NCBI RefSeq assembly: GCF_000377345.1
Contig: NZ_KB898039.1
Span: 1 to 64,000 of the forward strand
Direction of reading: 5' to 3'
Length of the DNA: 64,000 bases
Source of the DNA: Thioalkalivibrio sp. ALJ16
GTDB lineage: Bacteria > Pseudomonadota > Gammaproteobacteria > Ectothiorhodospirales > Ectothiorhodospiraceae
In this document: positions 55,699 through 56,624 of the stretch, in pieces
Layout: every line of letters begins with the position of its first letter
Numbering within the stretch: position 1 is the stretch's first letter
Notes under the pieces: generated by a model
Databases searched by the model: none
What the model saw: only the letters and a program-made list of their open reading frames with translations
Told to the model about the DNA's origin: nothing
Position numbers and translations under genes: made by a program

Positions 55699-55704
55699 TA
55701 TAAT
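55699..55704 (+). promoter_or_regulatory. Consensus -10 box before the broken Spy/CpxP-like gene
   Basis: A perfect TATAAT lies 32 bases before the ATG at 55736, with GAGGAG at 55724-55729 as ribosome-binding site. No TTGACA-like -35 is found 16-18 bases upstream, so the promoter may depend on an activator. The gap 55443-55735 also holds a 7-bp GCGGGTG/CACCCGC hairpin at 55526-55544. Confidence 0.5.
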
Positions 55705-55735
55705 GCGAACCCTTTCCATTGTTGAGGAGTCTGTC

Positions 55736-56624
55736 ATGGGGTGCGTATTCCGCTTTTCCGGGTGGCTGGTTGTGGGGCTTGCCCTGGTCGTTGCGGCGCC
55801 GGCTGGCGTAGGGAGACGCTGATTGAATCGCACGTCCGCGTTGGTGCCCCCTGTTTTCCGAGGCAAGGCGCGTCGTGCAGCGGGTAGTGGTTCTACCCGC
55901 AAGCGGCGCAACGCAGGATCGGGGAACAGGGGGCACCAACCCGACAAGTGATTGAAAGAGCGGGCTCGGCCGCTTTTGCGCGCGCACAGCGTTGCGGTTC
56001 CCTTGTGCAGAATGACTGCACGGCAGTCACCGCGCCTTGTTCGCACGCAAAAGCGACTCGAGCGCGGACGTGCGATTCAATCAGCGTCTCCCTAGTCCGT
56101 ACTCCGAATTGCAGGCACGCGAGATCAAGGCACTCTCCGCGCAGGAGACCGAGGATCTGCTGGAAGGCCGGGGTATGGGCATGGCACTGCCGGCCGAGCT
56201 GCATGGCTATCCGGGGCCAATGCATGTGCTGGAGGTGGCCGATTCGCTGGAGCTGACGCCCGAGCAGCGGCGCGAGACCGAGCGCCTGTTCGCGGCGATG
56301 CGGGAGCAGGCGCGCGATCTCGGCCGGCGCATCGTGGAGCGGGAGCGGGAACTGGATGTGCGCTTCGCGGAGGGCGGGATCAGCAGCGCGACCATCGAGT
56401 CGCTGACCGTCGAGATCGGCGAGCTGCGTGGCCGCCTGCGCCACCTGCATCTGTCCTACCACCTGGAGATGGATGCGCTGCTCGACGCGGAGCAGAAGGC
56501 GCGCTATCAACGGGCCCGCGGCTATCAGGGTGAATCCGGGAGCGAGTCCGGTGGCTCGCCAGGGGCGCATTCCGGGGGCGGCCATCACGGTCATCATCCG
56601 GGGCATGAGGGGCACCACCACTGA
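55736..56624 (+). pseudogene. Spy/CpxP-like periplasmic protein interrupted by a MITE
   Basis: The 5' part has a good ribosome-binding site and encodes a signal peptide (MGCVFRFSGWLVVGLALVVA then APAG). It stops within a few codons inside a 282-bp inserted element. The body resumes after the element at SPYSELQAREIKALSAQETE, passes through PGPMHVLEVADSLELTPEQR (an LTxxQ-like motif), a charged helical region, and ends in a His-rich tail (GGGHHGHHPGHEGHHH). That matches small periplasmic metal or stress-sensing helical proteins. After removing the element plus one TA, the two halves are off by one base, so a further indel exists. A frame starting at TTG 56037 inside the element has no proper start. 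Confidence 0.8.
55809..56094. mobile_element. MITE, 282 bp, 30-bp perfect terminal inverted repeats, TA duplication
   Basis: Ends TAGGGAGACGCTG... (55809-55840) and its exact reverse complement (56063-56094) match over 32 bases: a 30-bp terminal repeat plus the TA on each side. Those TA dinucleotides fit a TA target duplication as made by IS630/mariner-type enzymes, leaving an element at 55811-56092. Inside are two nested foldbacks: one with 15-bp perfect arms (55841-55855 / 55925-55939) around GCGGGTAG/CTACCCGC, and one with CGCTTTTGCG (55971-55980) / CGCAAAAGCG (56046-56055). No transposase frame is present, so it is non-autonomous. Confidence 0.9.

Follow-up and report, generated by a model that had tools for sequence, protein, structure and literature searches.

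A MITE interrupts the gene for a periplasmic LTXXQ/Metal_resist-type protein at its signal peptide in Thioalkalivibrio sp. ALJ16

Introduction

MITEs that interrupt bacterial genes have been described in other lineages. MITEPsy1 of Pseudomonas syringae is a short, non-coding element, provisionally assigned to IS5, whose insertion at CTAG or YTAA sites duplicates 4 nt, disrupts genes and alters their reading frames (PMC3189936). The element that we describe here, found within the first 64,000 nucleotides of contig NZ_KB898039.1 of Thioalkalivibrio sp. ALJ16 (hereafter the window), is similar in each of these respects. MITEPsy1 differs in being 100 nt long, in having 18-nt repeats of another sequence and in occurring in few copies; its transposition has been shown in the laboratory (PMC3189936). 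The Correia elements of Neisseria are also of another sequence and belong to another genus, and for them roles involving promoters, IHF and RNase III have been established (reviewed in PMC10969869).

The interrupted gene has described relatives of its own. It shares LTXXQ and Metal_resist profiles and a His-rich tail with Spy/CpxP/ZraP and CnrX/NccX, although its product is only 16–23% identical to the solved structures of these proteins and its gene is broken here. The locus provides a case of gene loss to a MITE in a free-living haloalkaliphile that is supported by comparison with relatives.

Results and discussion

An inverted-repeat element lies between a signal peptide and the mature protein

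Features of the locus are collected in Table 1. The earlier note on this DNA had described a complete start region (TATAAT, GAGGAG, ATG and signal peptide) running into an inserted element, with the mature protein resuming behind it, and both parts are indeed present. Translation from the ATG at 55736 gives MGCVFRFSGWLVVGLALVVAAPAGVGRR, terminating inside the element, and alignment shows this stub to be orthologous to the signal peptides of two same-genus genomes, G026 and G004. The -10-like box reads TACAAT in place of TATAAT in G026, G004, G009, G011, G022 and G024, and a promoter search found no full sigma-70 match for it. Downstream, the frame is open from 56091 to 56621 (stop codon 56622–56624), and this body scores above the curated cut-offs of both LTXXQ (PF07813; 32.4 bits, E 1.6e-7, cut-off 24.3) and Metal_resist (PF13801; 31.0 bits, E 3.1e-7, cut-off 29.2). 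The insert cuts the export signal off from this body.

Table 1. Features of the interrupted gene and of the element within it (positions in the window)
Feature	Position	Strand	Basis
-10-like box TATAAT	55699..55704	+	sequence and alignment
Shine-Dalgarno-like site GAGGAG	55724..55729	+	sequence
N-terminal stub = signal peptide, 28 codons, TGA stop within element	55736..55822	+	translation
Left target duplicate GTAG (family norm CTAG/YTAR)	55808..55811	+	flank comparison
MITE, IS5-type family, 280 bp (282 bp between TAs)	55812..56091	+	repeat comparison, flanks, folding
Left terminal inverted repeat, 29 bp, perfect	55812..55840	+	sequence
In-frame restart ORF from TTG within MITE, without signal peptide	56037..56624	+	ORF list
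Right terminal inverted repeat, 29 bp, perfect	56063..56091	-	sequence
Right target duplicate CTAG	56092..56095	+	flank comparison
Detached mature LTXXQ/Metal_resist part, His-rich tail, stop	56097..56624	+	translation, profiles, alignment, model

The element measures 282 bp between its flanking TAs, and the arms at 55809–55840 and 56063–56094 are complementary at 32 of 32 positions, as the earlier note had reported for its terminal repeats with the flanking TA included. Chance can be excluded for this inverted repeat because the family to which the element belongs is matched dozens of times in the genome. The element begins GGAGACG and at 280 bp is too short for a transposase gene, which together with its terminal repeats fits a MITE. 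It folds far more stably than shuffled sequences do (z -13.2 as DNA, -15.2 as RNA). An Rfam search with the element returned nothing credible, and the promoter search gave no promoter-like match inside it.

Relatives within the genus carry the uninterrupted gene

Empty orthologous sites, with the signal peptide joined in frame to the mature protein, are found in G026, G004, G022, G009 and G011; the insertion is thus polymorphic, and the same join is seen in G017 and others. The orthologous proteins are 95% (G026) and 94% (G004) identical. Aligning homologues across the junction, a check that the earlier note had proposed, showed that homology to G026 ends at 55805 and restarts at 56096; G026 has no insert at its junction, which reads ...VAAPAAA-NPYSELQ. 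The insert thus sits at the cleavage point, and the claim that a MITE has broken a periplasmic protein gene just after its signal peptide holds. The note had named homologues that lack a signal peptide and begin at the resumed frame as a case against this reading; ten same-genus relatives with an intact gene instead have a signal-peptide-like N-terminus, as judged by eye. At the target the relatives carry CCAA, not a YTAR site.

The element belongs to a family that is abundant in Thioalkalivibrio

Searching the genome and its relatives for the repeat, as had been suggested, gave dozens of matches in the host genome and 8 to 46 in each same-genus genome that carries the element. The host genome (2.755 Mb, 32 contigs) has the element or parts of it in more than 40 places, several of them at contig ends, and many dispersed copies are likewise what is expected of a MITE. 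All 66 stretches returned by an exact-pattern scan (one genome per species) were titled Thioalkalivibrio, and the element end had no match in viral contigs.

We gathered 80 distinct full copies from the genus and aligned them (81 sequences in the alignment). The commonest size, with TA-to-TA boundaries, is 282 bp, and others lie near 297, 312, 327 and 342 bp because copies either have or lack a segment of 15–16 bp at each of about four internal positions. The copy closest to that in the window is 96.8% identical. At the level of titles and abstracts, the Thioalkalivibrio literature on MITEs and insertion sequences yielded no description of the family, which seems to be previously undescribed; gene loss by MITE insertion is itself an ordinary and known kind of event.

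Two arrangements of copies elsewhere in the genus can be recorded here. G022 has a tandem pair, 2 bp apart by matched ranges (L096:458 onward; G022:C31:320457-321036), that seemingly uses one common target duplicate. In G024, a 1-kb pair of terminal inverted repeats (L095:946-1944) encloses two ORFs, one of them a thioredoxin gene. The pair was considered as a cargo element and rejected: the thioredoxin gene is native, since its neighbours are unchanged in relatives that have no such ends there, and the ends are probably two MITE remnants around native genes.

The family duplicates a 4-bp target and shares its ends with IS5-family elements

The earlier note had taken a bare TA as the target, and this needs correction. 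When flanks are read as 4 bp, 49 of the 80 copies have CTAG on both sides and the others include TTAA, TTAG, CTAA, CTGG and CAAG pairs. Identical pairs occur in 61 of 80 copies, as against a mean of 42 and a maximum of 50 with shuffled right flanks. The duplication is thus YTAR family-wide, with the outer bases duplicated too, as has been reported for IS5 (PMC10359306), and it places the element proper at the 280 bp from 55812 to 56091. The window copy is imperfect in this respect (GTAG/CTAG), its left duplicate being GTAG rather than CTAG. The corrected rule should help in annotating Thioalkalivibrio genomes, in which several contigs end in the MITE repeat.

If the element were an IS630/Tc1-mariner-type MITE with a TA target, the TA that flanks most copies would be accounted for, and IS630-type elements are present in the genus. 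The copies flanked by TTAA/TTAA, CTAA/CTAA and TTAG/TTAG, in which the outer bases are duplicated as well, and the quite different ends of the IS630 copies found (GTGTCCTTTAAC) make this assignment extremely improbable, and IS630 elements were rejected as the MITE parent on their ends.

The better candidates, roughly 1.2 kb long, came from a search for DDE_Tnp_1 transposases and have the ends TAGGGAAACGCTGATC and TAGGGAAACACTGATTTA. Two of their transposases were scanned with NF033581, the NCBIfam model for IS5, and scored 310 and 319 bits against a cut-off of 140. The host genome carries one such element (L200), with a 328-aa frame and, by reading, TAAG on both sides. The right end of the element in L196, GGAGACGCTGATTTAATC, is identical to a common form of MITE end, so that the MITE has ends in common with an IS5-family element; the remaining ends resemble MITE ends for about their first 13 bases. 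Like the MITE, the Thioalkalivibrio IS5-family elements L199, L200, L211 and L217 have ends of the form GGA(A/G)AC(A/G)CTGAT and 4-bp targets (CTAG, TAAG, GTAG), but at about 1.2 kb they contain the transposase gene that the MITE lacks. Since Thioalkalivibrio genomes, the host's among them, carry elements whose ends match, similarity of ends and targets makes an IS5-family transposase, acting in trans, the likely agent that moves the MITE; this would give the abundant repeat family a named, probable source of mobility.

Other routes to a parent were less productive. Among the longest ORFs beside single terminal inverted repeats in the host and related genomes, no parent transposase was recognised by eye, and PF13586 led to none. 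One such single repeat (L047) adjoins an element that looks, by eye, to be of the IS481 type. Separately, IS630-type elements adjoin MITE or IS5-type ends at L088:907-908, L084:2085-2086, L082:638 and L092:307, where they apparently target the TA within the border YTAR duplicate.

The junction carries an additional lesion

Compared with G026, 7 bp (CGGCCAA) are replaced by 290 bp, a net gain of 283 bp against the 284 bp of a precise insertion, and small changes lie beside the left junction. The earlier note had found the halves off by one base after removal of the element and one TA, and had suspected a second indel or imprecision. Both observations stand: removing 284 bp leaves the frame 1 bp short, and the discrepancy with G026 is real. 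At least four changes fall within about 11 bp at the junction. The probability of four changes in a preselected 11 bp at a 3% rate is 2e-4, which is a guide only, as the count is alignment-dependent.

Copies elsewhere in the host genome provide a comparison. Among 18 full copies examined, those at C14:6728-7009 and C9:114-395 also interrupt genes (others may sit in genes without a Pfam match), and in both cases removal of 284 bp rejoins the frames. The first rejoined gene matches the whole glucose/sorbosone dehydrogenase (GSDH) profile, 332/332, across the joint; the second, which is cut by the contig end, matches the C-terminal part of a metallo-beta-lactamase profile, with the match again spanning the joint. 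As these two copies split their genes cleanly, the imprecision appears special to the window site: either precise insertion is usual and that in the window was not, or the extra lesion is a separate event. The 1-bp lesion may have arisen before, with or after the insertion. Since it combines a net loss of 1 bp with substitutions at the left end, clean excision would not restore the frame of the relatives. We are quite doubtful that the family as such sometimes inserts imprecisely, with small deletions or substitutions at one end, and so creates knock-outs that clean excision cannot revert.

The lesion also bears on whether the gene was alive when the element arrived. A 1-bp deletion where the signal peptide ends could have killed the gene first, with the MITE later entering a neutral pseudogene. 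The frame that remains after removal of 284 bp, 1 bp shorter than in relatives, fits this order of events, as does the clustering of changes in about 11 bp while the flanks differ from G026 by about 2% (10 mismatches in 500 bp upstream, 8 in 405 bp downstream). Changes that abut the junction could as easily come from imprecise insertion or repair, however, and elsewhere the body has kept its open frame, all its indels being in frame. Prior death of the gene seems to us unlikely.

Predicted nature and loss of the exported protein

The earlier note had called the protein Spy/CpxP-like. The LTXXQ profile agrees with this, but the nearest folds extend the comparison to NccX/CnrX and ZraP besides Spy. 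An AlphaFold2 model is helical (pLDDT 77.5), and its best matches, once realigned, are NccX (Z 9.2), CnrX (8.8), Spy (8.2) and ZraP (8.0), scores that helical bundles can reach by chance; a sequence search against solved structures was uninformative. In an alignment of 16 sequences, H45 and H124 do not vary and H120 hardly does. Family membership would suggest a metal-binding or chaperone role.

Taken as a whole, the preferred explanation seems to us probable. A MITE copy has entered a gene at the codons where signal peptidase would cleave the product, with an extra lesion at the junction. The gene is single-copy and codes for a periplasmic helical protein of the LTXXQ/Metal_resist type. The MITE was probably mobilised in trans, by a transposase of the IS5 family that recognises ends of the GGAGACGCTGATT type and generates YTAR duplications. 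Translation from the native start ends after 28 codons, inside the MITE. Because the mature part lacks a start with an export signal and lies behind a very stable palindromic insert, no exported protein is expected, and the gene is almost certainly silent. The body protein has one match in the host genome, so no second copy was found.

Continued translation of the body from the TTG at 56037, giving a working cytoplasmic protein, is a further alternative. This TTG opens the only in-frame restart (ATG, GTG or TTG) that begins in the element, a 195-aa ORF, and the body has no stop. Yet the element has no ATG or GTG in frame after its last stop, no ribosome site is visible and no promoter-like match lies within the element, and the product would lack the signal peptide that the relatives' proteins carry. 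Such a rescue is very improbable.

The genus can dispense with this gene. It is frameshifted in G024, and several nearly complete genomes of the genus (for example, G002, G005, G016 and G029) gave no match to it at E 0.001; beside the neighbouring cupin gene it was not found in G002, G015, G016 and G027 over the stretch covered. Changes to the body on its own branch amount to five nonsynonymous and two synonymous, too few to test, and two in-frame indels near the His tail separate it from G026; the own-branch changes are compatible with relaxed constraint without proving it. The ChrR-like cupin gene next to it is matched as two separate pieces in G026 (L010) and G022 (L015/L190) and so looks frameshifted or partly deleted in those genomes.
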